From Pseudomonadota bacterium (GTDB taxonomy: Bacteria > Pseudomonadota > Gammaproteobacteria > Arenicellales > UBA868), in contig PBDS01000013.1 in the NCBI GenBank assembly GCA_002718155.1, forward strand, positions 1 through 34,106: a DNA stretch of 34,106 nt, written 5' to 3'. The position numbers and the translations under genes are program-made. Below the pieces are notes generated by a model. The model had not been told where the DNA came from, did no database searches, and worked only from the letters and a program-made list of their open reading frames with translations. Of the stretch, positions 2,426 to 33,252 are shown one piece after another (within the stretch, counting starts at the first letter, position 1; every line of letters begins with the position of its first letter).

Positions 2426-2762
2426 CTCCGAAACCCTTGAAGGTACTGAGCCAACGCTCAGGCGACGAGACTAACGACTGATGCCGGTTACAGCGTTCAG
2501 GACGCGGCCAGGACGCGGCGGGAATTCGTAGCCCGTCAGGTATTTCGATCGGTTCAGAGGACAAATAAGAGATTTGGTTACTCCAACGGATCTTGCGACC
2601 CTTTCAAACCAGCAGTCGACACCATCCGCTATTGCCGGTTACCGGATGCAAGGCCTTGGTTGTCGCATGGCCTCCGACGTGTTCCACCGATGCGTTCTGG
2701 GGCTGACTATGACAGAGTGAACTCGACGCGATCTTCGATCGGTCGCTGGAGGCAGGTGGAAT
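2426..2762. other. Intergenic region between tRNA-Val and hyuA
   Basis: I see no convincing gene. The only structure noticed is a short tandem direct repeat (AGGACGCGGC twice, about 2499-2520). The end contains the hyuA ribosome binding site (CTGGAGGCAGGTGGAAT before the ATG at 2763). Confidence 0.5.
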
Positions 2763-6499: not shown

Positions 6500-6627
6500 C
6501 TGGAATCACCTGGGCATGAACCTAAAGGCTGACCGACGTGGTCTCGTTATCCTCGGCCCACAGCCTCGTCGAAACCTGTAAGTGCCGTGATGGCTGGTTG
6601 GCTTTGAGCAACGAGCGATTAACGCAC

Positions 6628-6680
6628 GTGAGTCTGTATTTATACATGCGAACACGGCACCAGGGGCACCCCCACAGGGG
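6628..6680 (+). repeat. 53-bp repeat, copy 1
   Basis: This block matches 9570-9622 at 43 of 53 positions by hand alignment, with no gaps. It contains an inverted repeat TGTAT-TT-ATACA and, about 20 bases on, a GGGGCACCCCC block. Here it precedes a tRNA-Val 3' remnant; in the other copy it follows one. Confidence 0.7.
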
Positions 6681-6691
6681 TAGACCCGCCT

Positions 6692-6714
6692 ACAGTTCCT
6701 GTATCGCCCACCAC
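6692..6714 (+). repeat. tRNA-Val 3'-end remnant 1
   Basis: ACAG-TTCCTGTATCGCCCACCAC corresponds to the T-arm and acceptor end of tRNA-Val, with an internal deletion in the T-loop, and includes the CCA. The flank ATCTGACC is shared with remnant 2 but not with the intact tRNA gene. It is a candidate attachment-site scar. Confidence 0.65.
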
Positions 6715-6951
6715 ATCTGACCCGGGGAAATACGGCGAATCATCATATGGATGGTTCGCTGTTTTCGTACAAGCAGCAGCTAATGCCTGGGGAGATACCT
6801 TGATGCAAGCCCCAAATGCCAAGAACGATACGAAACCATTGGGTCGAGTCATTCACGAAATAGTCGCTCAGAGGTCATTTTCGCGGCATCGGGTAACCCC
6901 CCTTTGGCGCCGAAAAGGTCCAGTTTGTTCAGATCTCGGTACATTCAAGAC

Positions 6952-7059
6952 GTGAGATATTGGGAATGGGTGAGCACCACCTTCAGGAACGGGTTGGACG
7001 CCATCATCTGGGTCTTGTGCATCGCGATCGTTGCCGCTGTGGTGGTCGCCGTCCTCTAA
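6952..7059 (+). CDS. Possible small single-pass membrane protein
   Basis: This is a 35-codon frame from GTG at 6952 to TAA at 7057-7059. The N-terminus is polar (VRYWEWVSTTFRNG). It is followed by a ~20-residue hydrophobic stretch (IIWVLCIAIVAAVVVAVL) reaching the C-terminus, as in small inner-membrane proteins. No strong ribosome binding site is seen. The size makes chance plausible, so this is a low-confidence call. It lies between the remnant-1 junction and the alpha/beta hydrolase gene. Confidence 0.3.
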   Translation: MRYWEWVSTTFRNGLDAIIWVLCIAIVAAVVVAVL

Positions 7060-7076
7060 CGGGGTCAGACACCGAA

Positions 7077-7088
7077 ATACCCGGGTAT
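7077..7088. promoter_or_regulatory. 12-bp perfect palindrome ATACCCGGGTAT upstream of hydrolase
   Basis: This palindrome lies about 80 bp upstream of the alpha/beta hydrolase start at 7167. It could be an operator. No regulator gene is adjacent and no second copy was noticed. Confidence 0.25.
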
Positions 7089-7166
7089 CAAGACCAGGCG
7101 GCCTAAGCACTCGCCAAAGGCGTAGGGCTACAGTTTGCTTGTTCGGGTATGAGGGTGGAGGTGGGC

Positions 7167-8024
7167 ATGCGTATAGGTGTGCTGCAGCTAGATGATGTAA
7201 GGCTCGGTTTCGAATACAGAGAAGGTGATGGTGTCCCCATTGTGTTCATGGGTGGGGTGACTTCGACCACCGCAACCTGGGAACCCGTTCTTGAGCGTCT
7301 TGAAACCAGCCGCCCCATATACCTGCTGGACCACAGAGGACATGGCCGTTCTTCTCATATTGGAAGCGGCGACTATGCAAACTGGGTGGGGCAGGTTTCC
7401 GACACCTGCCAATTCCTGGAAAGAGTGAGTGGGCGTAGCGTTGTAGTGGGCCATTCACAGGGTGGAATTCAAGCCTTCTACGCTGCAGGGAAGAAGCCGC
7501 AACTGGTGGCAGGACTGTATTCAGAAGACATTGCGCCACACTTCGCCGCCAACAAGCGACACGTAGGAAGCGCCTTTATTGGCGCCTTGAAGAACATCGG
7601 TGCGGAGCTGGGAAAGGCGCTAGCCGCCGACGAACAAGGTTCGGGGATGGCTGCCAGGATTGCAGGAGTCTCCCTTGGTGGTGACATCACCTTCGGAGAT
7701 GTCAGATCGGATGAACAACTCCAGATCATGGCCGATGGTGTCCTACAAATGGACCCTAAGATTTTTACGACCTTTTTCGAAGACGATTCTGTTCCGTCCT
7801 TTGATCTAGACGACACGATTCGAGCGATTCAATGCCCTGTTCACTTTGCTTACGGAGTACCCGAGCTGGGTGGATTGTTCGTTGAGAGCGATTTGGACGA
7901 TTTACGAGATAAAGGTTGTGACGTCACTTCGACCAACTTTGAGGGCGTCGGTCACAGCGTTCATTTCGATGCTTTAGAACCGTTTGTAGAAGATCTTGCA
8001 GCTTTTCTAGAACGAGTCGACTAG
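7167..8024 (+). CDS. Alpha/beta hydrolase
   Basis: The 285-residue protein has an oxyanion/lid start (VFMGGVTSTTATWEPV), DHRGHGRSS and the nucleophile elbow GHSQGG (Ser ~97). The C-terminal histidine is in GVGHSVHFD. This is the haloperoxidase/epoxide-hydrolase-like branch of the superfamily; the substrate is not predictable. The frame opens at an ATG at 7149, but GGAGGTGGGC lies directly before the ATG at 7167, so I take 7167 as the start. It converges with the CoA transferase gene, leaving only ~41 bp between the stops. Confidence 0.82.
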   Translation: MRIGVLQLDDVRLGFEYREGDGVPIVFMGGVTSTTATWEPVLERLETSRPIYLLDHRGHGRSSHIGSGDYANWVGQVSDTCQFLERVSGRSVVVGHSQGGIQAFYAAGKKPQLVAGLYSEDIAPHFAANKRHVGSAFIGALKNIGAELGKALAADEQGSGMAARIAGVSLGGDITFGDVRSDEQLQIMADGVLQMDPKIFTTFFEDDSVPSFDLDDTIRAIQCPVHFAYGVPELGGLFVESDLDDLRDKGCDVTSTNFEGVGHSVHFDALEPFVEDLAAFLERVD

Positions 8025-8065
8025 ACCTCGCCCTTTCAATGCTGAGATGCATAGGTCTGTATCTA

Positions 8066-9364
8066 TCAGGGAATTACCAAGCTGATGATTTCCGCCGCCG
8101 CCGCCTCAATTGGAGCCAGTGCTTGGTCTACCTCTGCGGCGGAGAAACCCAGGTCCATCATTATTTCCGACGTATGCTCGCCGAGGTATGGCGGTGGGCG
8201 TCTCGCGCCTAAACCAGGCGTCTCACTCAACTGGACGACATTACTAACGACCTGTGTTGTGCCATAGTTCGGGACCGTGACCTCGGCAAGATAGTTGTTT
8301 GCGTCCGCTTGAGGGTCAACCAGGACCTCCTGATAGCTCTGCACTCGTTCATAAATAATCTCTGGTTGGTCACCAAGAAAGACTTCCCACTCGGCTGTTG
8401 TATGCGACGCAAAGGCTTCTCGAAGTTCAGCTCGAACTTCGGTGACCCCGTCGCCATCACCAAGAATTCCGATTCGTTTCGCCGCTGTGTTCCATCTGGT
8501 GTCGAGAGCTAGCTCAGGTTTCCCGCCATAAACGAGAAATTCGTCCCATGACTCATTTGACATTGCAACCGCCAAGAGAAACGAACCACCATCGGATGTT
8601 TGGTAGACCCCATAGGGGCTAGCGATACTGGGGTTGTATTGACCATCGCGTGTCAAAGAGACTCCAGTCATCGCTGTGTGAGTCAACTCCCAAGATTGCA
8701 ACCACATCATGGTTCCCAGAGCTGAAGTATTTACCTCCTGCCCTCGTCCGGTTTGTTCGCGGGCGAATAACGCGGTCATGATTCCTAAGCTGAGTTGCAT
8801 AGCGCCCGAATGGTCGGCGATTGCTGCGCCAGGTGGCATCGGAGGTCCATCAACGGGACCCGATACTGCTGCTAATCCGCCACGCGCTTGCGCCGCACCG
8901 TCCAGCATTGCTTTCTCGGCGTCTTTCCCTTTTGTCCCAAACCCGGAAACTCGTCCATAGATAAGGCGCTCATTTATTCTCCGCATGTGGTCATAACTCA
9001 AACTCATTCGATCCAGAGCTTCAGCCCGATAATTTGTTACAAACACATCGGATTTTTTTATTAATTCGTTAAGAACTCTTTTTCCGAGATCTGTATGGGC
9101 ATCTAGGGCTATTGATTTTTTCCCACGGTTCATAGCCACTTGCTGGCTACCCATTACTTCCATTCCATAGTCAAAACCTGGTCCCCGCGCGTACCGGTTT
9201 AACTCTCCGCCTGGAGGCTCAACCTTTATTACCTCCGCTCCCATATCACTTAGAAATGCTCCAACATGGGGGCCCTGAACGGCGACAGTCATGTCTAAAA
9301 CTTTCAGTCCAGTGAGCGGACCATCAGACAAATCTTTTGAAACCACTGTTTCGTTCCCCCTCAT
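8066..9364 (-). CDS. CaiB/BaiF family (class III) CoA transferase
   Basis: The 432-residue protein starts the fold with LKVLDMTVAVQGPHVG and FLSDMGAEVIKVEPPGGE. It carries the family's catalytic Asp at D184 (AIADHSGAM), where acyl-CoA and aspartyl-CoA intermediates form. Family members move CoA between carboxylic acids (carnitine, formate/oxalate, bile acids, 2-methylacyl). The base composition is more AT-rich than hyuAB. It lies between tRNA remnants 1 and 2 and is probably cassette cargo together with the hydrolase. A weak DosR-like box lies 67-80 bp upstream of its start. Confidence 0.88.
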   Translation of the reverse strand: MRGNETVVSKDLSDGPLTGLKVLDMTVAVQGPHVGAFLSDMGAEVIKVEPPGGELNRYARGPGFDYGMEVMGSQQVAMNRGKKSIALDAHTDLGKRVLNELIKKSDVFVTNYRAEALDRMSLSYDHMRRINERLIYGRVSGFGTKGKDAEKAMLDGAAQARGGLAAVSGPVDGPPMPPGAAIADHSGAMQLSLGIMTALFAREQTGRGQEVNTSALGTMMWLQSWELTHTAMTGVSLTRDGQYNPSIASPYGVYQTSDGGSFLLAVAMSNESWDEFLVYGGKPELALDTRWNTAAKRIGILGDGDGVTEVRAELREAFASHTTAEWEVFLGDQPEIIYERVQSYQEVLVDPQADANNYLAEVTVPNYGTTQVVSNVVQLSETPGLGARRPPPYLGEHTSEIMMDLGFSAAEVDQALAPIEAAAAEIISLVIP

Positions 9365-9430
9365 CTGCGCGCCTTAAAACTGAGGCACCCCTGCCTAACT
9401 ATTAATCATCACCCAAGTTGGCAGTCAAAT

Positions 9431-9444
9431 GGGACCAAACGACC
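9431..9444 (+). promoter_or_regulatory. Weak DosR-like box
   Basis: GGGACCAAACGACC differs at two positions from the box at 12431-12444 (GGGACCAAATGCCC). It lies upstream of the CoA transferase start at 9364. It is weaker than the other boxes. Confidence 0.3.
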
Positions 9445-9511
9445 GAGCCACCCCCAAGCTCTTTATTTCTTACCCCAATGTGTTTGTGGGGTGCGCCGAT
9501 CTGCGGTGGGA

Positions 9512-9562
9512 TGCACGACACGCAAGAGGTGACAGGTTCAACTCCTGTATCGCCCACCACAT
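9512..9562 (+). repeat. tRNA-Val 3'-half remnant 2
   Basis: About 50 bp match the tRNA-Val gene from the anticodon arm through the CCA, with two mismatches (TGCAC for TGCAT; GGTGAC for GGTCAC). The 5' half is absent, so this is a 3' duplication and not a functional tRNA. This is the expected product of site-specific integration at a tRNA 3' end. Confidence 0.85.
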
Positions 9563-9569
9563 CTGACCT

Positions 9570-9622
9570 GTGGGTCTGTATCTATACATGTGGACGCGGT
9601 ACTACGGGCACCCCCACAAGGC
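9570..9622 (+). repeat. 53-bp repeat, copy 2
   Basis: This pairs with 6628-6680. It keeps the inverted repeat TGTAT-CT-ATACA and a GGGCACCCCCACA block. It sits directly after tRNA remnant 2. A 13-bp piece (GGTCTGTATCTAT) also occurs at 8054-8066. Confidence 0.7.
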
Positions 9623-9704: not shown

Positions 9705-10709
9705 ATGGCAAGACTTGGGTTTTGGCCGCCCGTCTATGGCAACTGGATTATCTCTACAGAGCAGGGTACGCGTGACGCTTCTTTTGCCTACACGAAAGAG
9801 GCAACCCTGCTGGCAGAGCGACTGGGCTTTGACACGATGCTTATCGCTGAACACTTCATGAATCCTGTTAGCCCAGACCTCAGTCAGCTAGATGCCTGGA
9901 CAACAGCAAGCGCTCTGGCTGCGCTAACAGAAAATATCGAAATCATTACTGCTGTTAAACCAGGGTTTCGAGCTCCAGGGGTCATCGCGAAAATGGCCAG
10001 TCAAATTGACCACATAAGCAACGGCCGCATGGCCATCAACTTGGTTTCTGCGTGGTGGTTGACGGAGTTTGAAATGCTGGGTGCCCCCGTATTAGCCCAC
10101 GATGACCGCTACGCACGATCCGAAGAATTCCTCGAGGTGATCGTGGGAAGTTGGACTGAGCAAGAATTCAGCTTCTCTGGCGAATACTACGAAGTGAAAG
10201 AAGCGACTCTTTCTCCCAAGCCGCTGCAGCAACCACATCCCCATATCTATATCGGGGGTGAATCGGAGCAGGGACGGACCTTGGGGGCCAAGATGGCCGA
10301 CACCTTCCTCATCAATGGCCGTCCACCCGAAGAAATTGACGAGATCGTCGGTCATGTTCGACGGCTAGCGCACAGTTACGGTCGCGAGCCCCGGTTCGGT
10401 ATGTCGGCATTCGTAATCTGCCGAGACACAGAAGATGAGGCCAAGCAGGAGTTCCAGCGCTTGCTAGAACTCCGCAAACTTGAACTTAAGGGCTACGACA
10501 CTGAAGTCGTAATGCTGAGGTCTGTGTCACCTGGCGGAGCGCTCGGGACAAACGGGGGCACCGCGGCAGGACTCGTGGGGACCCCAGAGCAGATTGCTGA
10601 GCGAATGGGACGTTTTGAGGATCTTGGGATCAAGACGTTTCTCTTCCAGTTTCACCCAGTAATCGAGGAGATGGAACGCTTCGGCGAGCAAGTCATGCCG
10701 TTGCTTTAG
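9705..10709 (+). CDS. LLM-class flavin-dependent monooxygenase (SsuD-like)
   Basis: The 334-residue protein has a luciferase-like TIM barrel. It shows WPPVYGNW at the N-terminus, AERLGFDTMLIAEHF, the strand NGRMAINLVSAWW and the typical PHIYIGGESEQGR block near residue 184. It most resembles the alkanesulfonate/dimethylsulfone monooxygenase branch (reduced flavin plus O2, C-S or C-N bond cleavage); the substrate is unproven. No flavin reductase gene is adjacent. GGGGA precedes the ATG. It is the first gene of the third cassette, followed within 60 bp by the MDMPI-like gene. Confidence 0.85.
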   Translation: MARLGFWPPVYGNWIISTEQGTRDASFAYTKEATLLAERLGFDTMLIAEHFMNPVSPDLSQLDAWTTASALAALTENIEIITAVKPGFRAPGVIAKMASQIDHISNGRMAINLVSAWWLTEFEMLGAPVLAHDDRYARSEEFLEVIVGSWTEQEFSFSGEYYEVKEATLSPKPLQQPHPHIYIGGESEQGRTLGAKMADTFLINGRPPEEIDEIVGHVRRLAHSYGREPRFGMSAFVICRDTEDEAKQEFQRLLELRKLELKGYDTEVVMLRSVSPGGALGTNGGTAAGLVGTPEQIAERMGRFEDLGIKTFLFQFHPVIEEMERFGEQVMPLL

Positions 10710-10767: not shown

Positions 10768-11430
10768 ATGAGTGAGAACCCAAGCCCGCCCGAGCGACTC
10801 CTGTTTGATCGAGCGCTCGCCAAGTTTGATGCGGTGGTTCAGCAAGTGCCGAGTGATGCATGGGCGAACCAATCCCCGTGCGAGGCGTGGAATGCGGCAA
10901 ACATCGTTGGCCATGTCGCGGCAACCACCCAGTTGCCTGTGCTCTTGGGTCGAAGAATCCCTCTGGGAGTTCCAGAAGGGCCCGATGCCTCGGAGGTTCC
11001 GACAAGAGGTAACGACGACTTGTTTATCAGCAAGACAATGCTGGCGATGATTCGAGGTCTCCCAGAAGAGGCCGTGACCGATCCCTTGGGCGTTTGGAAT
11101 CGTTGTTATACAGAAATGGACGAAGTTTTGTCTGGCGATGTCTGGGGCCAGTCACCCATTGGCACCCAGCGCGGCACTATGACACTCGAAGAGTGGTTGG
11201 AACCCGCCTTTTACGATTCCACGGTGCACACCTGGGATCTGTCTCAAGCAACTGGTGTGCCTCACAACCTGGACGACGAGCTCTGCAAGGCCGCATTAGC
11301 CACCCTTAGGAGCATTGAAGAGTCAGCGAATATGAGATCCAGCAATGTGTTTGGGGCGGCGCTCGATGCTCAAACCGAAGACTCGCTCAGTCAACTGATT
11401 GCCTATACCGGACGCATCCCTATTCGCTGA
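10768..11430 (+). CDS. DinB/MDMPI-like protein, TIGR03086-type
   Basis: The 220-residue protein has the N-terminal four-helix pattern of the mycothiol-dependent maleylpyruvate isomerase / DinB_2 superfamily. The metal-site region contains WNAANIVGHVAATTQ, and the typical C-terminal STVHTWDLSQATG appears near residue 150. Members bind a divalent metal and are thought to use mycothiol in thiol-transfer or isomerisation. It follows the LLM monooxygenase on the same strand and probably shares its transcript. It ends just before tRNA remnant 3. The exact reaction is unknown. Confidence 0.8.
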   Translation: MSENPSPPERLLFDRALAKFDAVVQQVPSDAWANQSPCEAWNAANIVGHVAATTQLPVLLGRRIPLGVPEGPDASEVPTRGNDDLFISKTMLAMIRGLPEEAVTDPLGVWNRCYTEMDEVLSGDVWGQSPIGTQRGTMTLEEWLEPAFYDSTVHTWDLSQATGVPHNLDDELCKAALATLRSIEESANMRSSNVFGAALDAQTEDSLSQLIAYTGRIPIR

Positions 11431-11439
11431 CGAGCATTC

Positions 11440-11484
11440 ACATGACAGGCCAGAGGCGACGGGTTCAACTCCTGCATCGCCCAC
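11440..11484 (+). repeat. tRNA-Val 3'-half remnant 3 (most decayed)
   Basis: CATGACA, CAGAGG and GGTTCAACTCCTGCATCGCCCACA align with the anticodon arm, variable loop, T-arm and acceptor of tRNA-Val with several mismatches. The T-stem changes are not compensatory, so it is a decayed remnant. Confidence 0.7.
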
Positions 11485-11519
11485 ACCGACAGAGACGAAT
11501 GGATCTTCCGAACCTTGGC

Positions 11520-12158
11520 TTAGTAGAAGAAGTCGGTGTCGAAGTCTTCGCTGGGACGAGCCGCCCGAATCTGGTCGCCGGTGAGCGTCCCTTGTTTCAG
11601 GGCTAGCTCGGCGACTAATTCGACCCAATCCCAGTGCTCAGTCAAAATGGCTTCAACTTCGTCGTCCCATAACTCACGGACACGATGAATAATCTGCGAC
11701 CAATCTTCCTCCTCGACGCCCATCTGCGGATCACGAAGCATCACGGGGCACAGAGCCTCGTCGTAGTCGGGACCCTCGTAGCCATAGACGTTGAGAAGTT
11801 TCTGGCTGATGTTCTCAATGTCTGCCGCCGCTCCATCCCAGTTGAACGCTCCAGTGATTCGCTGCTCAGCTAAAGGACCACCCAGGGAAGACTTGGTGTT
11901 GGCATCGACCCAATCTCTAATCGCAGGCCACTCGTCATCGCCGTGGCGGTACATCTGAACCTCCATCTGTTCATAGAAGATTCCAGAGATGTCGGGGTGG
12001 GTGATATGGCCGAATGAGCCCTCTTCCTTGTCGGGGTCAATGGTCAAGCTGGTGCATTCAACGCCGGCGACCTCACCTACAACAGCGTGACCTGCTTCGT
12101 GGAAGGCGACTACTCGGAGTGGAGGCATGGACATGGCAGCGATGGTATTGCGTGTCAT
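11520..12158 (-). CDS. Stand-alone FtsH-type (M41-like) zinc metalloprotease domain
   Basis: The 212-residue protein has HEAGH at about residues 20-24 (zinc ligands and catalytic Glu). It also has GGPLAEQ and a later DGAAADIENISQ block that matches the FtsH region carrying the third, acidic zinc ligand. There is no AAA+ ATPase domain, no membrane segment and no signal peptide. It is therefore a protease domain without its unfoldase; similar short M41-like proteins occur in actinobacteria with no known role. No ribosome binding site precedes the ATG at 12158. Instead there is a C10 tract, and a short upstream frame ends in an ATGA overlap with it. Confidence 0.72.
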   Translation of the reverse strand: MTRNTIAAMSMPPLRVVAFHEAGHAVVGEVAGVECTSLTIDPDKEEGSFGHITHPDISGIFYEQMEVQMYRHGDDEWPAIRDWVDANTKSSLGGPLAEQRITGAFNWDGAAADIENISQKLLNVYGYEGPDYDEALCPVMLRDPQMGVEEEDWSQIIHRVRELWDDEVEAILTEHWDWVELVAELALKQGTLTGDQIRAARPSEDFDTDFFY

Positions 12159-12238
12159 AGCGGGGGGGGGGAGTTCATAGAGAGCGGATGTGGCTCGCCC
12201 AGGATGGTGGCAAAGTTACCTTCGTCACTCTGATTCAC
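12155..12238 (-). CDS. Possible 27-codon leader ORF coupled to the M41-like gene
   Basis: The frame runs from GTG at 12238, preceded by GAGAGCGG, to a TGA at 12155-12157 that overlaps the protease ATG (ATGA). The translation ends in LSMNSPPPL, with the prolines encoded by the C10 tract. One extra C would fuse the frame to the protease. It lies almost wholly inside the 21-bp inverted-repeat element. It may be a real coupling peptide, the broken true 5' end of the gene, or chance. Confidence 0.3.
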   Translation of the reverse strand: MNQSDEGNFATILGEPHPLSMNSPPPL

Positions 12239-12259
12239 CCGCTCTCTATGAACTCCCCC
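12167..12259. repeat. Perfect 21-bp inverted repeat flanking 51 bp (possible MITE or hairpin)
   Basis: The left arm 12167-12187 and right arm 12239-12259 are exact reverse complements (GGGGGAGTTCATAGAGAGCG plus one more G). The loop is 12188-12238. It abuts a run of ten Gs (12162-12171). No clear target-site duplication was seen. A 21-bp perfect stem is far too long for chance. It could be a miniature transposable element or a strong mRNA structure before the protease gene. Confidence 0.85.
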
Positions 12260-16290: not shown

Positions 16291-16710
16291 TCAACTAGGT
16301 GCCTGAGGCAAGGTTTTTAGGTAGACGGTCACGTCTTTGAGGGCGTCATCACTTAGTGCGGGATTACCGCCTCTCGATGGCATTTGGATTCCTGTTGTGT
16401 TCTCAGGGTCCGACGGGCCTCGGCCTTTGATCAAGAAGCCGACCAAATCTGCAGTGCTGTTAGTGGTGATGAAGTCAGTACCCGCCAAGGGTTTGCCGAG
16501 TCCCGGTCGTCCACCCGCGTCGGGTGCATGACAGGATGCACAGTTCTTGAGGTAGACCCTCTCACCCTCGATCGGATCTCCCCGGGGACTTTCCTCGGAA
16601 GATGATTCAGCAGTGTCGGCTAGGTTCTGAGTTTCATTGGAGGCCTGGCTTCCGCAGCCGAAGAGCAATGCTGCAAACGACAGGGAAACCAATAATTTCT
16701 TGGTGCTCAT
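16291..16710 (-). CDS. Lipid-anchored c-type cytochrome of the nos cluster
   Basis: The 139-residue protein has a lipoprotein signal (ALLFGC, Cys19), an acidic Ser/Glu linker, the haem motif CASCH (C57, C60, H61) and a likely axial Met in IQMPSRGG (M110). It is a class I monohaem cytochrome c on the outer face of the membrane. It starts in an ATGA overlap with the nosL stop, so it is the last gene of the nos operon. It is a candidate electron carrier to NosZ, comparable in place to the NosC-type cytochromes of clade II clusters. Confidence 0.85.
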   Translation of the reverse strand: MSTKKLLVSLSFAALLFGCGSQASNETQNLADTAESSSEESPRGDPIEGERVYLKNCASCHAPDAGGRPGLGKPLAGTDFITTNSTADLVGFLIKGRGPSDPENTTGIQMPSRGGNPALSDDALKDVTVYLKTLPQAPS

Positions 16711-17219
16711 TTTCGTGTCTCCGTGTTCTTAGGGTGGTGGGCTGTTGATGTGTGCGCTGCCAATTGATCGATCAGATCTGTCCAGTTCATGACCGTTGCC
16801 TCGTGAGTGGTTGCGGCTTTTCTTGCTGCCGTAAGCGATGAGTGCGCAGCGAAGCCTGAGGCCATCGGAGAGACCAGATTCTGGGAGTGAACGAACCATG
16901 CTTTGGTCGCTGGAATTGGCTCTCTGGTCGAGTAGTCGAAAACCCAGATTGAAGTGGTTTGGACCTCTGGTTCTGTGATGCTGTGAGTGGCCATCTCCCC
17001 GATGTCGTCAAAGACTCGCTCTGTTCCGTCTGCGAGCCTGTAGGCCGCGGCGAAGCGAATGTCGTCGATAGTCATGTGGCATTCGGTGCATAAAGATCGC
17101 CCTTCAATGATTTGAGGCGGCCCGGCTGCTGGTTGATTGGCGCAAGCTCCGGGGATCACAGCAACTGCGAGGAGAACTAAGGAAAGGGACGCATGGTGCC
17201 TTGGGGGGTGTGTCTTCAC
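16707..17219 (-). CDS. nosL: NosL, copper chaperone lipoprotein
   Basis: From GTG 17219 (170 residues) the protein has a lipoprotein signal with PGAC (Cys26). It then has the NosL copper motif CTECHM (C44, C47, M49), FDDIGEM and WFVHSQNLVSPMASG, all hallmarks of NosL, the chaperone that supplies Cu(I) for NosZ CuZ assembly. The frame is open to 17276. The GTG at 17219 overlaps the nosY stop (GTGA) and has AAGAAGGGA upstream, so it is preferred. Confidence 0.9.
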   Translation of the reverse strand: MKTHPPRHHASLSLVLLAVAVIPGACANQPAAGPPQIIEGRSLCTECHMTIDDIRFAAAYRLADGTERVFDDIGEMATHSITEPEVQTTSIWVFDYSTREPIPATKAWFVHSQNLVSPMASGFAAHSSLTAARKAATTHEATVMNWTDLIDQLAAHTSTAHHPKNTETRK

Positions 17220-18097
17220 GCTTGGTCCCTTCTTTGGAACACCTGTACCGATAAAGCCAAGGGGACAGCCGTCCACAAGCCGAGAACGAGAATCGCAAGC
17301 GCGGCGACTCCTCTACCGAAAGTGTCCACGGCGTATGTGCCGGCTGGCCCCAAGGCATCCAACGAGCCTTCGAGAGAGATCACCGTGGCTAGACGGAATG
17401 CTTCGACCGGGTTCAATAGCGCGGCTGCGAACAAGGTTTCGGTCGGCAGCTGGGTTGCGACTGTGGCACCCATGAGCCCGAGATCGCCTAGGAACACCAT
17501 GCAGAACCAAACCGAAATGGCGACGCCTAGTGCAGCCGAACCTCTCTGAACCAAAGTGCTAACTAATACGCCGATAGCAACCGTGGCTGCTACGAGAAGG
17601 CAGGACAGGGCCGTCAGGCGAAGCAACAAACCTGGATCAATAGGGTTACCGCGAAGAGCGCTGAAAACTCCGGCGACTCCGAATCCGAGCAATACGGATG
17701 CCGACATTGCTGCTACATGGCCTGCGAAGGTCCCAAGGAGCACTTGAGTCCGCGAGACGGGATGGGTAAGCAAGAATACGAGTGTCTTAGATTCGCGCTC
17801 AGAGGAAAGTTGACGCGCTCCGAGGGTCAACGACATGAGGGTAATTACCAATTGGACTAGCGCGATGAGAGAGGCCAGGGCTCGGCCGAAGCCCCCCGAG
17901 CTTGTTAAAGTTCGGTGCTGCGTCGCAGTCACGGTTATAGCTGCAGCGAGAAGTGCGAAACCTCCCGCGTAGGTCCAAAACCACCAGTCTCGTCTGGCTT
18001 CTTGAATCACCTTGCTTGCAATGACCACCGGGGGGTAGTTGCGCGGTGGCGTGCGGTTACTTCCCGTGAACGAAACGATTCTGATAGTCACCGCCAC
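17216..18097 (-). CDS. nosY: NosY, ABC-2 type permease
   Basis: The 293-residue protein has about six hydrophobic segments, with the motif LSSERESKTLVFLLTHPVSR between the second and third. That motif is typical of NosY/ABC-2 permeases. With NosF it forms the ABC transporter that works with NosD in NosZ copper-site maturation (established for NosDFY). The start is GTG 18097 or, by analogy with the GTGA couplings in this operon, GTG 18091 overlapping the nosF stop. nosL follows with overlap. Confidence 0.9.
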   Translation of the reverse strand: MAVTIRIVSFTGSNRTPPRNYPPVVIASKVIQEARRDWWFWTYAGGFALLAAAITVTATQHRTLTSSGGFGRALASLIALVQLVITLMSLTLGARQLSSERESKTLVFLLTHPVSRTQVLLGTFAGHVAAMSASVLLGFGVAGVFSALRGNPIDPGLLLRLTALSCLLVAATVAIGVLVSTLVQRGSAALGVAISVWFCMVFLGDLGLMGATVATQLPTETLFAAALLNPVEAFRLATVISLEGSLDALGPAGTYAVDTFGRGVAALAILVLGLWTAVPLALSVQVFQRRDQA

Positions 18098-18942
18098 ACC
18101 TCGAAATCCAAAACGTCGAAGCGCGCATTGTGAAGAAATGTGAGAGCGTCTGCTTTTTCTTTAGCGGAAACTTGGAGTAGAACTCCGCGTCCGTATTGCT
18201 GGGATTGGTAGCCAGCTGCTTCAAGGCGTGTCTGGGCAGGAGCAGCCTGGTGAGGTGGCAGGGTTACGTTCAGCCATGACTGGATTCCCCAGGTCGATGT
18301 AAATGCCTTTGAGGTGCACTCCCCAACTTTGCGCCCTGCGTCTAGTGCTATGACGTGATCGGTGAGCATCTCTACTTCTTGAACACGGTGAGAGGTGAGA
18401 ACGAAGGCCCTTCCAGGTCGCTTCAATGACTGCAGTAAGGCTGCAGTTTGGCGTTGAGTGTCAAGATCTAACGATGATGTTGGTTCGTCAAGGAGGAGGA
18501 TTAAGGGGTCAGCGAGGAGGGAAATTCCGATAGCGAGACGCTGGCGCATTCCACCCGAGAGGTCAGCAACTCTTTTTCTCCCCGGTTCCGCGAGATTCAG
18601 TAGATCTGCTGTCTCAGATACCAGGTCAAGTGACAAATTTCTCAGTCGGCATGAGAGAGCGAGTGTCTCATTGATGGTGAGGGCTCCGTAGAGTGCAGGT
18701 TCTTGGGGTACATAGCCGATGAGAGATCGCGCAGCGGTCGAGTCCCGCTTGGTATCGAAACCGGCGACTGTTATGTGACCCTGGTGAGAGATCAACCCCA
18801 AGATGCAACGGATTACGGTGGTTTTCCCGGCCCCGTTAGGGCCCCATAGTGCTACTGATTCGCCGGTAGCGACGTTGAAACTGAGGTCGTCGACGACGAT
18901 GCGGCCTTTGTAGGCCTTGGTCAGATGCTTAACCTCAATCAC
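18088..18942 (-). CDS. nosF: NosF, ABC transporter ATPase
   Basis: From GTG 18942 (284 residues) the protein has Walker A WGPNGAGKT (33-41), a Q-loop in YVPQEPALYG, the signature LSGGMRQRLAI, Walker B LILLLDEPTSSLD and the switch His in LTSHR. It is the NosF-type ATPase partner of NosY and NosD. The frame is open to 19038, but GGAGAG lies six bases before GTG 18942 and that start just overlaps the nosD stop, so it is preferred. It would hydrolyse ATP at the inner face of the membrane. Confidence 0.92.
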   Translation of the reverse strand: MIEVKHLTKAYKGRIVVDDLSFNVATGESVALWGPNGAGKTTVIRCILGLISHQGHITVAGFDTKRDSTAARSLIGYVPQEPALYGALTINETLALSCRLRNLSLDLVSETADLLNLAEPGRKRVADLSGGMRQRLAIGISLLADPLILLLDEPTSSLDLDTQRQTAALLQSLKRPGRAFVLTSHRVQEVEMLTDHVIALDAGRKVGECTSKAFTSTWGIQSWLNVTLPPHQAAPAQTRLEAAGYQSQQYGRGVLLQVSAKEKADALTFLHNARFDVLDFEVWR

Positions 18943-21070
18943 TTGTCTCTCCGTGTGAGGGTGTGTGATCACCAACGAATCGGTCAGGTCGCGCAATCGA
19001 CAATCCTGCGATGAGTAGAAGGACCGATGTGAGAGCAAGTGCGGGGCGGTTTGTGTTGTGCTGCCCGAACGACAAGGTGGGAAGATTCGGCGGCGCAGCC
19101 AGAGGCGCGACGTCGGTGAGAATGGGATTGGGTCTCAGGTGGGGGAAGGTTCGGCCCGCGACATCTATGGCGGTGGCGGCAAGAGTTCCGGAAAAGAACC
19201 GGAGGTTGGGGTACCTCGTTTGAAGGTTTCCGAAGAGATTGTCAACTTCGTAGGGCGTATCGCCTATGCCGTCTTGGTTGGAGTCGTAGCCCGAATAGTC
19301 GCTCCAGTAGTTGCCGATGCCGTCTTTAGACCAATAGTTGGCTTCAAGGCCTCCGGTGCTGTCAGAAGTGACATGCTCACCGTTGTCGATAAATGCGTTT
19401 CCGGTGAATGTGTTTCGGGCCACGGTGGAACCCAGCATCGCCCCAATGTTGTTAAACGCGAATACGTTCTCCTCGATGTTGTGAGATACACCGACTTTGC
19501 TTGGTGAGTTATCGACATAGAGTCCTGATCGGTTTTCAACGAAGTGATTCTTGTTTGCCTTCAACCCATCTACATCTTTGATTCCCAGTCCATAGCCGCT
19601 CGGTCCTCTGTTGGACCTGAAGATGTTTCCTGAGACGACAAGGTCTGTGCTGTACATGAGAAACGCGCCAACCGAATTGTGTTCCAAGAGGTTTTCTTCG
19701 ACTGTGGCGCCATCTGAGTACATGAAGTGCAGGCCATAGCGGCCGTCTTCGACGTGGTTGCGACGAACGGTGATTTTGTCTGTGAACCAGAAAACGGCAT
19801 CTCGGCCGCCGATTAGATGGTTTCCTTCCACGACTGCTGTTGAACTTTGCCAAAGTCTGATGCCATCGCCCCGTCGAGCGATAAAGAGATCCATGCTTTG
19901 AATGTCATTGTTGGCGATGTGCGCGCCGTTCGAACGCCGAAGGAACATCCCGAACAGCACTTCCTTAAATCGGTTACCCCGGATGTCGATTCTGGGACTC
20001 GTGGTAGAGCTGATACCGGCGTCTTCCCGATCTAAGCGAGATCCGCTATTTCGAATAACGAGCCCCTCAATTCTTACGTCAGGGGCCCGTACCTCGATGA
20101 CTGAACCAAGCCCCTGACCATCTACTACTGGCCAGTCGGTGCCAACGAGTGTGAGGGGTTTGGTAATCAAGACCCCGCCCCGGTACATGCCCGGGGCGAG
20201 CTCAACTACTCCGCCAGGTTCTGTCGCGTCGATAAGGACTTGAAGATCAACCCACTGGGTCTCACGGTCGATGGAAAGGGCGTCAGCTGAGGTACTGGTT
20301 CCAATACCAACCGCGAGGGTAGCCCCGGCGGCAAGAAGTGATCTTTGAACTACTCGTCTTCGGAACGGGTCTTTCCGGCTACCTACCGAGCTATCGGATG
20401 CTCCGTCTGTAAAGTTGTCTCCTGGCGGCGTCGACAGGGGCTTGTACGCCCGGCGGTGCGAGATCATCCCAGCGGCGGCAAGCGCCGACGCTGTTAGAGC
20501 CATCAAAAGCCCCCACCCTGGCCATGCCAGAGTGTCGAACTGAGCGATGCTTCCCGAACCGAAAAGCGGTGGAGTGAACTCGCCGACTGCATGAGAGAAC
20601 GGCGCTCTTGGGTCGAGGCTGTGGCCATAATTCCATAACCAGTACTGAAGGTCAGCCAGAAAGAACAAGGGAAACAGAACTGTGGGTCCTGCGAGAGTCA
20701 AAGCCCAGCGACTGTGCACATAATGGCCGGCTAGCAGCAGAGCCGCGAGTGTGAGGATCCCTGCAACAGAGACGGTTCTCTCCAGAACTGCACCGTCGGC
20801 AAAAGAAGGTAGGCCGATGTAGTGATTGAGTCCCTCAAGTTCTTGCACGTCTCCCTCAAGGCGGTTCACCCACAACGTGACTCTCAACCCGTCTGGATAT
20901 TGCGGAGCTTTGAGCTTCAACTCCCAGTAGGGCAAGAAGATTGACGAGCCGAGCAAGATGGAGGACAACGTCAACAAGCGCTTAGGTCGCTGATAGGTGT
21001 CACGATGTTGGCTAGCTTCGACAGCTGACACACGAGGCCCCAAGATTCGCTCAATGAGTGCGGGGGGCAT
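18935..21070 (-). CDS. nosD: NosD fused to an N-terminal membrane domain
   Basis: From ATG 21070, with an ideal GGAAGGAGGCGA site, the protein has 711 residues; ordinary NosD is ~400-450. Residues ~30-235 form a membrane domain of about four segments containing APQYPDGL and LNHYIGL. I recall these motifs from the small nos-cluster membrane proteins of clade II types. A second hydrophobic stretch after RRRVVQRS (~260) probably leads the beta-helix out of the cell. The NosD part (~280-640) has repeated carbohydrate-binding/sugar-hydrolase (CASH) turns such as GLHFMYSDG and the NYWSDYSGYDSNQDGIGD block. A C-terminal membrane anchor follows. It acts with NosFY in CuZ assembly. Confidence 0.9.
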   Translation of the reverse strand: MPPALIERILGPRVSAVEASQHRDTYQRPKRLLTLSSILLGSSIFLPYWELKLKAPQYPDGLRVTLWVNRLEGDVQELEGLNHYIGLPSFADGAVLERTVSVAGILTLAALLLAGHYVHSRWALTLAGPTVLFPLFFLADLQYWLWNYGHSLDPRAPFSHAVGEFTPPLFGSGSIAQFDTLAWPGWGLLMALTASALAAAGMISHRRAYKPLSTPPGDNFTDGASDSSVGSRKDPFRRRVVQRSLLAAGATLAVGIGTSTSADALSIDRETQWVDLQVLIDATEPGGVVELAPGMYRGGVLITKPLTLVGTDWPVVDGQGLGSVIEVRAPDVRIEGLVIRNSGSRLDREDAGISSTTSPRIDIRGNRFKEVLFGMFLRRSNGAHIANNDIQSMDLFIARRGDGIRLWQSSTAVVEGNHLIGGRDAVFWFTDKITVRRNHVEDGRYGLHFMYSDGATVEENLLEHNSVGAFLMYSTDLVVSGNIFRSNRGPSGYGLGIKDVDGLKANKNHFVENRSGLYVDNSPSKVGVSHNIEENVFAFNNIGAMLGSTVARNTFTGNAFIDNGEHVTSDSTGGLEANYWSKDGIGNYWSDYSGYDSNQDGIGDTPYEVDNLFGNLQTRYPNLRFFSGTLAATAIDVAGRTFPHLRPNPILTDVAPLAAPPNLPTLSFGQHNTNRPALALTSVLLLIAGLSIARPDRFVGDHTPSHGETSD

Positions 21071-21108
21071 TCGCCTCCTTCCGGGAATGCATTGATGGAC
21101 CGAACAAA

Positions 21109-23097
21109 TCAATTCGGTTCAACTAGGAAATATCCAGCCATTTCAAGGTGGAGTGCCGAGCAGAATTCAGTGCAGTAATAAGTGAACACACCGTCGTTCT
21201 TGGCTTCGAACTCAATGGTGGCTGTTTCTCCTGGCTCAAGACTGAGGTTGATGTTGTATCCCGGTATCGCGAAACCATGGGTTGCATCCTCCGAGGTCTC
21301 GACGTTGGTCAGGTTCCAGGTGACGTGATCGCCCTGCGTTACTGTCACCCGCTCTGGAGTGAAATGACTTCGCATCAAGGTCATATCGATGGTCACCTGG
21401 TTGCCGTTCCTGGTTACTCCTTCGGAGCCGATCTTGGGAGCGCCGGGTTTCGGGGCCATCGACCCTGGATCCCACCCCACTTCGGGGTAAACCGTCATAG
21501 GTTGCAACTTGTCGGCCTTGATGATTTGCGCGTAGTGGGGTTCACCATTAGCGACGGGCATGTCATACAGCAGCTGCATGTCAGGGCCCGGTTTGCTGAT
21601 ATCGACCAGCTGGAAGTTCTGGGGATACAGGGGTCCGGGATGGAAGAAGCGATCAAGGGACCATTTATTGAGCGAAACTAGGTACTTGCCATCAGGGGAC
21701 ACGGTGTCACCCTCTGCAGTCACCACATGTCCAACGTTGTAGTGAATGTCAACAGTGCCTTCGAGCTTCCAGCCATCTTCCCTGTATGGCGAACCCAAGC
21801 TCCAGCGGGCAACATCTGAATCAAGGAAAAGGCTCGTATAGGCGTACCCCTGGTCATCGAATTGGGTGTGGAGTGGTCCTAAGCCCACTTCGACTTGAGC
21901 TTCAACCACGTCATCAAAATCCAGCAGGGGAATTCCGTATTTGTCGGTGTCGAAACTTCCGGCTGCGATCGCTTCCTGGATTTTGGCAAACGAATAAATT
22001 GTCACATGGGGGTCAAGTTTTCCTGAGACAACGATGTAATCGCCCCTAGGGGCAATGTCGACTCCGTGAGGGCTCTTTGGTTCCGGAGTGAAATACAGCA
22101 AGTCATTAGCTATCGCTGTGTCAATCGTGATGAGGGGGAAGCCGTTGACCTCGACTGTTTCACCTGCAGCGGCGACCGCCACGGCCGCGTCTAGATCGAT
22201 GATGTGGAGATAGTCATTTTCGCCGGCGCTCGCACCAGACTCGAAGTATTCGCTGTTTTCAAGGTCATCAGGGTTCAAGCCTGTTGACATCTCGACATTG
22301 AACGAGTTGCAGAAAATCCAACCTTTCGAGACTGCCTTTCCCGAATCACACACGTCCTGCCAGTACGGCGGTAGTTCCATACCGAAAGAAGCCTCTGGAT
22401 CGATCCTGCCCGCAGCTCGATCGAATTTCCAAAAGGTAATCATTCCGCGATATTGGGTGGAGTAGTTGTCCAGCGGTGCGTAATCCCATGCCAGCGGTGA
22501 GGCATATTGGCCACCTTCGATGACCCATTCAGTGTCAGGCGTTACAAACGTCCCTCCGTGATCGTTGATTGATAGTGGGTTCTTCAGAATTTGCTTAGTT
22601 TCGAAGTCTCGAAGATCGATCAGGGCGACCCTGGCGTTTGCCTTATCGTTGATGAATAGAAACTCGCCGTCGTAGTCACCGTTTGTCTCCGATAGGGCTG
22701 GGTGATGAGTGTCTCCCCAGGTGAGCACCTCGCCATCAACGGCACCAGCGGCAAATAACTCTTTGTGGTGTTCATCGCCGTACCCCCAGCCTTGCCAGGG
22801 CTCGGGGGTGAATACGGCGATTGACTTGAGCATGCGCATTGAGGGAATACCGAAGACGAACACCTGGCCACCATGACCGCCTGAGGAAAACATGATGTAT
22901 TCATCGATGACACCGCTGGGTGTATAGGTCTTCAACGCTGCGGCGATGTCGGCATCGCTGAGACCGCGCTCTGCGGCTATCTGGGCTGCGTCAGACCCCA
23001 ACTCAGAACTTGTTCCATTACTCGTACAAGCTGAGGCAATTAATAAAAGCGCAGCGAATGCCGCGAATCGGCCTACCGACAGGGATGCGTTCCTCAT
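21109..23097 (-). CDS. nosZ: NosZ, nitrous-oxide reductase (lipoprotein type)
   Basis: The 662-residue protein reduces N2O to N2. All seven CuZ histidines are present: H131/H132 (DTHHP), H180 (NDHGG), H344 (SPHGV), H410 (PLHTQF), H457 (VGHVV) and H521 (EPHYAQ). The C-terminal cupredoxin domain has the CuA ligands H607 and C642-C646-H650-M653 (YCTEFCSALHLEM). The export signal is a Sec lipoprotein signal (LLIASAC, Cys24), not the twin-arginine signal of clade I, which fits clade II NosZ and an anchored enzyme outside a monoderm membrane. It heads the nosZDFYL-cytochrome operon. A DosR-like box lies 77-89 bp before the ATG. Confidence 0.97.
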   Translation of the reverse strand: MRNASLSVGRFAAFAALLLIASACTSNGTSSELGSDAAQIAAERGLSDADIAAALKTYTPSGVIDEYIMFSSGGHGGQVFVFGIPSMRMLKSIAVFTPEPWQGWGYGDEHHKELFAAGAVDGEVLTWGDTHHPALSETNGDYDGEFLFINDKANARVALIDLRDFETKQILKNPLSINDHGGTFVTPDTEWVIEGGQYASPLAWDYAPLDNYSTQYRGMITFWKFDRAAGRIDPEASFGMELPPYWQDVCDSGKAVSKGWIFCNSFNVEMSTGLNPDDLENSEYFESGASAGENDYLHIIDLDAAVAVAAAGETVEVNGFPLITIDTAIANDLLYFTPEPKSPHGVDIAPRGDYIVVSGKLDPHVTIYSFAKIQEAIAAGSFDTDKYGIPLLDFDDVVEAQVEVGLGPLHTQFDDQGYAYTSLFLDSDVARWSLGSPYREDGWKLEGTVDIHYNVGHVVTAEGDTVSPDGKYLVSLNKWSLDRFFHPGPLYPQNFQLVDISKPGPDMQLLYDMPVANGEPHYAQIIKADKLQPMTVYPEVGWDPGSMAPKPGAPKIGSEGVTRNGNQVTIDMTLMRSHFTPERVTVTQGDHVTWNLTNVETSEDATHGFAIPGYNINLSLEPGETATIEFEAKNDGVFTYYCTEFCSALHLEMAGYFLVEPN

Positions 23098-27156: not shown

Positions 27157-27234
27157 TACCTGGTCAGCCAAACCTGGGCTCAGATGGGGGGAGTTCCGAG
27201 AGAGCAGGAGAAATAAAACAACGGAGGTGAACCC

Positions 27235-33116: not shown

Positions 33117-33252
33117 AACTGGCGGTTTGAAGGTAGATCCTGTAGCGCCCACGGTCTATTGCACACCCGCGGCTACGGTCTCCCCGTGTAAACACAAGGA
33201 TATACCGTGCGGAGCGGCTGCTATTGGTGGCGCCCGCCCTGTGACGGTGGGG

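Follow-up and report, generated by a model that had tools for sequence, protein, structure and literature searches.

A candidate recombination site bounding small gene cassettes in tRNA-linked islands of one Acidimicrobiales family

To our knowledge, integrons and dif modules are the main systems known to stockpile gene cassettes. The flexible islands of Candidatus Actinomarinales, as described in the island sections of their account, contain, at transfer RNA (tRNA) genes, small cassettes that end in a partial repeat of the tRNA, and the word integrase does not occur in that island text (PMC7771536). In Methylophilaceae, the relevant passages describe variable islands anchored at tRNA genes, including an additive kind with repeats of the tRNA end and the tycheposon, which carries a tyrosine recombinase (PMC10872708). 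This paper concerns a stretch of DNA of 34,106 bp, the entire contig C13 of assembly G000 (hereafter the window), and a repeat in it, named R, of which two copies lie close to remnants of a tRNA-Val gene. From the comparison of related loci, we infer that R is active, rather probably as an attachment (att)-type recombination site that bounds small gene cassettes and is acted upon in trans, probably by a tyrosine recombinase.

Both copies of R in the window, R1 at 6628-6680 and R2 at 9570-9622, are on the plus strand. As reported in the initial annotation, they are identical at 43 of 53 positions in an ungapped comparison, and both contain a G-rich/C-rich block and a motif given there as TGTAT-NT-ATACA, which can be written more narrowly as TGTAT-YT-ATACA. 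The core of R1 is GTCTGTATTTATACATGCGAAC, from 6632 with its centre at 6638-6643, and that of R2 is GTCTGTATCTATACATGTGGAC, from 9574 with its centre at 9580-9585. The position of the copies on opposite sides of tRNA remnants was also borne out. R1 lies about 16 bp before T1, an exact 18-nt 3' remnant of tRNA-Val (6697-6714, plus strand), and R2 about 9 bp after T2, a remnant of 49 nt reaching from the anticodon loop to the 3' end with 96% identity (9512-9560, plus strand); CACATCTGACC follows both T1 and T2. Additionally, a left half of R, GTCTGTATCTAT, absent from the initial annotation, was found at 8055-8066 on the plus strand behind an alpha/beta-hydrolase cassette gene (7149-8024, plus strand, Pfam). 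Its resemblance to R ends after ATCTAT, and its profile score is only 14 bits (E 0.013). A search of the 3.2 Mb of G000 with positions 6628-6720 recovered R2 at E = 1.2e-8 and no third copy, and the remaining matches, apart from the tRNA-Val pieces, had E values of at least 0.9.

In related genomes, R is seen as a junction between shared and unshared sequence. The window, L039 and L070 have in common the end of the hydrolase gene together with the left half of R, at 94-96% identity, and each of the three continues with a different right side; in L039 the encoded hydrolase is 95% identical and directly follows tRNA-Val. A cassette of 655 bp, 87% identical between G180 and G149, has R at its end in both genomes and unlike neighbours, and its start carries R in G180 and a degenerate R in G149. 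G180 also shares a left flank with G165 (87%) beside unlike right sides, and a right flank with G182 (97.5%) beside unlike left sides. Since homologous left halves are found with different right halves, and homologous right halves with different left ones, exchanges took place in R or directly beside it. The left-only copy in the window stops after ATCTAT (at 8066), and the right-only copies of L078 and L068 begin at or near ATCTAT. In the mechanism proposed here, R would be a site of about 55-60 bp at whose centre, ATCTAT, a tyrosine recombinase swaps strands; GTCTGT would be the left arm and ACATGTGAAC the right arm, and the G/C block a putative accessory site. R-bounded cassettes would gather head to tail in islands behind the tRNA-Val(GAC) and tRNA-Pro(TGG) genes of a single Acidimicrobiales family.

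R is also placed with regard to genes. An open reading frame (ORF) on the same strand ends no more than 50 nt before R in 13 of the 23 copies counted, which are not independent and represent about eight kinds of gene (four are hydrolase ends, two belong to the 655-bp cassette and two to another shared gene), compared to 7% for random positions and 3 of 20 in a mirror control. Six copies start 5-7 nt after the stop codon. The count used 23 of 30 R matches, four weak ones being omitted and three lying too close to a contig start. All copies within an array are in one orientation. Single-gene units with a site behind the stop codon in fixed orientation would also be displayed by integron attC sites in a cluster of attC sites lacking an integron integrase (CALIN). 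Such an identity is nevertheless highly improbable for R: eight strands of four copies, folded as single-stranded DNA with no attC model run, showed no advantage over shuffles (z -1.09 to 0.24), no core boxes were seen by eye against the attC consensus, and none of three recombinase proteins tested passed the integron integrase cut-off, 30 of the 41 PF00589 matches falling in two Xer-type groups.

Rfam found nothing above threshold in the window except two tRNAs, and positions 6560-6800 gave one match at chance level (E 3.5). Covariation in R was not convincing, with a double change in 1 of 10 predicted pairs, in one sequence. On these Rfam, covariation and folding results, R was rejected as a promoter or RNA element. 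Because covariation is negligible and folding ordinary, the unit is most likely double-stranded DNA.

The lineage carrying R can be judged from the flank of the island. A phosphotransferase-like protein encoded there is 97% identical to a protein of UBA4542 ('Candidatus Microthrix sp.') and 62-86% identical to those of 13 other loci of metagenome-assembled genomes titled Acidimicrobiales, Acidimicrobiaceae, Acidimicrobiia or Candidatus Microthrix, 14 loci in all. By this flank gene and the tRNA locus, the window contig is assigned to Acidimicrobiales. Weak R-pattern matches in two order relatives of G000 adjoin proteobacteria-like genes, efp-like and mucB-like, and two PF00589 proteins of G000 reach at most 45% identity to those of the Acidimicrobiales set. 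Because of the Acidimicrobiales flank gene, the proteobacteria-like order relatives and these distant PF00589 proteins, the contig is probably misbinned in G000. The G+C content (56.0% in the window vs 56.1-60.7% in seven other G000 stretches) gives no separation.

A 17-base core pattern was found in 8 of the 14 genomes behind the flank-protein loci (13 matches; 3 control matches) and, within one Acidimicrobiales family, that of G149, in 11 of 39 genomes. A sequence model of R, run on the 39 genomes with at most 140 candidates scored per genome, gave 27 matches in 14 of them (G157 only at E 0.011). Order-wide, R was present in 7 of 397 genomes, a sample of a larger order, all of the G149 family and with no control matches. 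Among 109 genomes of G000's own order, only three besides G000 had a match, one per genome, each with 3 mismatches and unlike R beyond the core by eye. Copies occur in clusters, with four in about 3 kb in G148:C15 (one weak) and three in 2 kb in G180:C18. Several clustered copies per genome would suit the end of a transposable element resembling a miniature inverted-repeat transposable element (MITE) or of the insertion sequence (IS) type, but the single orientation at gene ends and the mosaic halves make this quite unlikely; moreover, no terminal inverted repeats or target duplications were seen by eye in the R flanks, at which no dedicated search was aimed. A viral, phage or plasmid origin was rejected on empty searches: the exact R pattern was absent from IMG/VR, a 161-bp query bearing R had no match among phage or plasmid records, the G180 cassette protein and the arm-like repeat described below had no matches in IMG/VR, and the exact tRNA-Val 3' end gave none in a search for such an origin. 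Among strong matches, 14 of 18 R contigs end within 2.5 kb of R (combined p ~5e-9); contigs tend to end near R, as expected of variable regions in metagenome assembly.

The island attachment gene of the window is an intact tRNA-Val(GAC) at 2349-2425 on the plus strand (ARAGORN, Rfam). A tRNA gene lies upstream, in the orientation of R, in seven of the 18 R contigs: tRNA-Val in the window, L039, L071 and L081, and tRNA-Pro(TGG) in L068, L075 and L080. Four more (L069, L077, L074 and L144) were assigned to the tRNA-Val locus through genes common with the R-free L040, so that 11 of 18 trace to tRNA-Val or tRNA-Pro islands and the other 7 are without placement. The initial annotation proposed to test whether every copy has a tRNA fragment within 100 bp. 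The answer is no, because only 2 of the 30 R matches, both in the window, are so close to a tRNA 3' end (nine tRNA kinds compared; an 11-nt match near an L078 copy counted as chance). The next nearest copy follows tRNA-Pro in L075 at 116 bp, the 7.7 kb upstream in L078 hold only a 79% tRNA-Val remnant, and L144, placed at the tRNA-Val locus, has 3.3 kb without tRNA. R is not tied to tRNA remnants. Neither of the outcomes named beforehand as adverse, many copies unrelated to tRNA ends or no others at all, was encountered, as other copies exist and the seven upstream tRNA genes and four further placements link many of them to tRNA islands. The proposal that R is a recombinase site or the end of an element, and no promoter, is supported by its place at gene 3' ends, its fixed orientation, the exchanged flanks and one locus in which R has the position of a tRNA core next to an arm-like repeat; the constant tie to tRNA fragments was its part that had to be given up.

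Duplicated tRNA 3' ends mark element boundaries in their own right, with T1, T2 and T3 in the window and remnants in L038, L072 and L144. T3, a tRNA-Val remnant of 80% identity at 11439-11487 on the plus strand, was absent from the initial annotation and has no R nearby. The element-end sequence after T1 (6716-6741) is 84.6% identical to the stretch behind the L038 remnant, and in the T2 region homology to L038 reaches left to 9479. T1-T3 would be att duplications stemming from elements that integrate at tRNA genes and used this hotspot too, and R1/T1 and R2/T2 would be spots where both kinds of junction became neighbours. A further 16 nt at 33137-33152 resemble a tRNA 3' end (ATCCTGTAGCGCCCAC, 2 mismatches to tRNA-Val) as well as a piece in L185, and may be due to chance.

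A link between R and tRNA-type integration is offered by an arm-like direct repeat, GAGTAGCCATTYGAGTAGCC, with 6 matches in 4 of the 39 family genomes and 3 control matches in 3 genomes. At distances of 56-68 bp, four matches follow tRNA-Pro (2), tRNA-Ala or a tRNA-Val remnant and a fifth follows a 3' end judged tRNA-like by eye; the sixth (L180/L079) lies about 58 bp behind R. The distance from arm to R centre is 101.5 bp vs 98-109 bp from arm to anticodon in the four matches with a known anticodon. In the window, inspection by eye shows AAGCAGC 57 bp after the CCA of T1, a position matching that of the arm-like repeat. One R copy, at a single locus, has the position of a tRNA core with respect to the arm-like repeat, the most suggestive link to tRNA-type integration. 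A wider proposal, a new integrase-in-trans cassette system of Acidimicrobiales, is tentative and on present evidence rather unlikely to hold in full: a tyrosine recombinase family sharing the GAGTAGCCATTYGAGTAGCC arms would use either the tRNA 3' half or R as att core, and R would string single-gene cassettes head to tail while sparing tRNA genes, a solution independent of integrons. The contigs with the arm-like repeat are L038, L068, L075, L079, L183 and L185, and none of the PF00589 matches listed lies on them.

With regard to the enzyme, 41 PF00589 matches were obtained in 18 genomes (E limit 1e-5; G165 was left out). The family genomes are incomplete and absences of enzymes are provisional. 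The window contig, only 34 kb long, has no PF00589 match, the own recombinase that marks a tycheposon, and no integrase was found among 20 window proteins scanned. The recombinase would work in trans, given that the surroundings of R yielded no dedicated integrase. In G147, a tyrosine integrase lies beside the same tRNA-Val; window positions 2427-2538 align with the G147 sequence between tRNA-Val and the catalytic domain of this integrase (3' end of its long ORF), and the sequence fused to R in L071 matches the integrase 3' end (91% over 93 bp). On the integrase contigs L113-L119, the R profile matched only at E 0.09-0.34, and no arm-like repeat was present. Two of 18 genomes contain PF00239, namely G155, which bears R, and G157, with one weak R match; with so few, a serine recombinase site, considered for the 2-nt palindrome centre of R, was set aside.

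Host enzymes are another candidate, as R could be a dif-like site worked by XerC and XerD in the manner of Acinetobacter dif modules. Exactly two PF00589 proteins are present in seven of the 12 R-bearing genomes searched (G148, G149, G151, G153, G154, G155 and G180), and one in G152. Thirty of the 41 matches fall in two orthologue groups, Xer-type by their G154 representatives, and 10 others lie outside those classed; one of each group occurs in the five two-protein genomes with both loci compared (G148, G149, G153, G154 and G155). The G154 pair is over the NCBIfam general PRK00283 cut-off, with XerD and XerC as best equivalogs, though below their own cut-offs; this pair and the G147 integrase, the three proteins tested, are far below the integron integrase cut-off. 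The centre of a dif site is 6 bp, as is the putative centre of R. However, a site of the type CATAA-N6-TTATGTAAA, which we take to be the dif of the family by its likeness to the dif consensus and not by terminus mapping, occurs in 11 of 18 genomes (3 control matches) and is unlike R: the best 11-mer match is 7, equalled by 817 of 1000 shuffles. At this chance level a dif likeness is disfavoured. Moreover, pdif sites alternate in orientation, whereas the R copies of an array share one. A dif-like R is accordingly improbable.

Several results weigh against R as an att-type site. No R recombinase was identified and none dedicated lies beside R in the PF00589 and PF00239 searches of 18 genomes, four R-bearing genomes (G147, G158, G182 and G183) have a third PF00589 match, and neither an excised circle nor an exact before/after pair was seen. 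Ten of the 23 copies are without an upstream gene end within 50 nt, few half-sites are available to locate the break, the geometry of R plus arm is known from one locus, and the arm pattern returned 3 control matches as well as the 6 in the family genomes. The identity between copies of 94% in the core (57-59% beside it, 86% in the G/C block) is partly built in, since the search for copies relied on that core, and the loci from which the R profile was made were then scanned with it. Also, the L042/L044 homology stops about 40 nt before R, and the shared right flank of L071/L144 begins only about 60-70 nt behind it; because of these boundaries, not all exchanges end in R.

Such boundaries tens of nucleotides outside R, and the want of a recombinase beside it, fit the main rival, in which the repeat serves some other function, as an operator, leader or promoter-like element for the genes of the island, and homologous recombination between copies exchanges the cassettes. 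A repeat of about 55 bp could be long enough for RecA exchange. For another job speak the 12 of 23 R cores that lie 78-173 nt before the start codon of a same-strand ORF of at least 100 codons, among them a set in which both the tail and the N-terminus, VSENLQKL, are constant. On the other hand, at L068 12855, L070 and L074 the gene that follows R runs on the other strand; R is linked in position to the stop codon of the gene before it; left-only copies end and right-only copies begin at or near ATCTAT; and no convincing RNA structure was found. This rival is possible but doubtful, and the att-type site is retained as the preferred reading.

Apart from R, several genes and smaller features were recorded. 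A CoA-transferase III gene (8066-9364, minus strand) is an island gene common to L039, L071 and L144, and a luciferase-like monooxygenase (9705-10709, plus strand) and an MDMPI_N-domain protein (10768-11430, plus strand) are presumed cargo (all by Pfam). A 24-bp inverted repeat (96%, arms 45 bp apart) lies at 12167-12259, at the start of the short ORF 11520-12158, whose M41 peptidase match spans 16 residues; a half-like copy is present at 27186-27205, and the repeat was not found in the relatives compared. Genes of nitrous oxide reduction type (NosL, ABC transporter and NosD by Pfam) lie at 16291-23097, downstream of the island. The protein of the 655-bp cassette is nuclease-like by eye and without a Pfam match, and seven cassette proteins run in PADLOC gave no match. 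ORFs behind R tails share the constant start VSENLQKLxGV (transmembrane-like by eye) and differ C-terminally (L068 13570, L073 1371 and L078 11202, oriented as R; related pieces at L068 14401 and L075 9566), and swapping of N-terminal modules is possible. A family of proteins of 735-768 amino acids occurs in four R contigs (L073 2044-4251, L078 8828-11131, L144 80-2290 and L075 10442-11767, the last cut by the contig end); they look secreted, and the one member tested had no Pfam match over cut-off.

If true, the proposed role of R would explain the exchange of small metabolic and other genes beside tRNA genes in uncultured marine Actinobacteria. Little mobile-element machinery has been found in the genomes concerned, and the R system would fill this explanatory gap; R would also offer a defined site from which to search for the enzyme. 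Literature searches found no description of R-like arrays in Acidimicrobiia.

Compared to the Actinomarinales islands as presented in their island sections, the R islands are likewise small cassettes at tRNA genes of marine actinobacteria with tRNA repeats at the ends; tRNA fragments alone mark the ends there, whereas here the non-tRNA repeat R marks them too, usually away from tRNA fragments (PMC7771536). The Methylophilaceae tycheposons and additive islands are similarly variable and tRNA-anchored, with repeats of the tRNA end in one kind, but a non-tRNA junction repeat as found here is not mentioned in the relevant passages (PMC10872708). Acinetobacter dif modules are also genes bounded by short recombination sites and served by a host recombinase in trans; R differs from the dif-like site of the family, and its arrays have a single orientation and lie on chromosomal islands. 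R is unlike attC sites, having no attC-like fold and, by eye, no core boxes, and no integron integrase was among the proteins of R genomes that were classed. With integron arrays and CALINs, as outlined in the pertinent parts of their description, the R arrays share small genes in one orientation, a site directly behind the stop codon (here in 13 of 23 copies, six at 5-7 nt), mosaic arrays and the lack of an adjacent integrase (PMC11389934). In their working, the R arrays would resemble integron arrays, as cassette arrays with a distinct site of their own.

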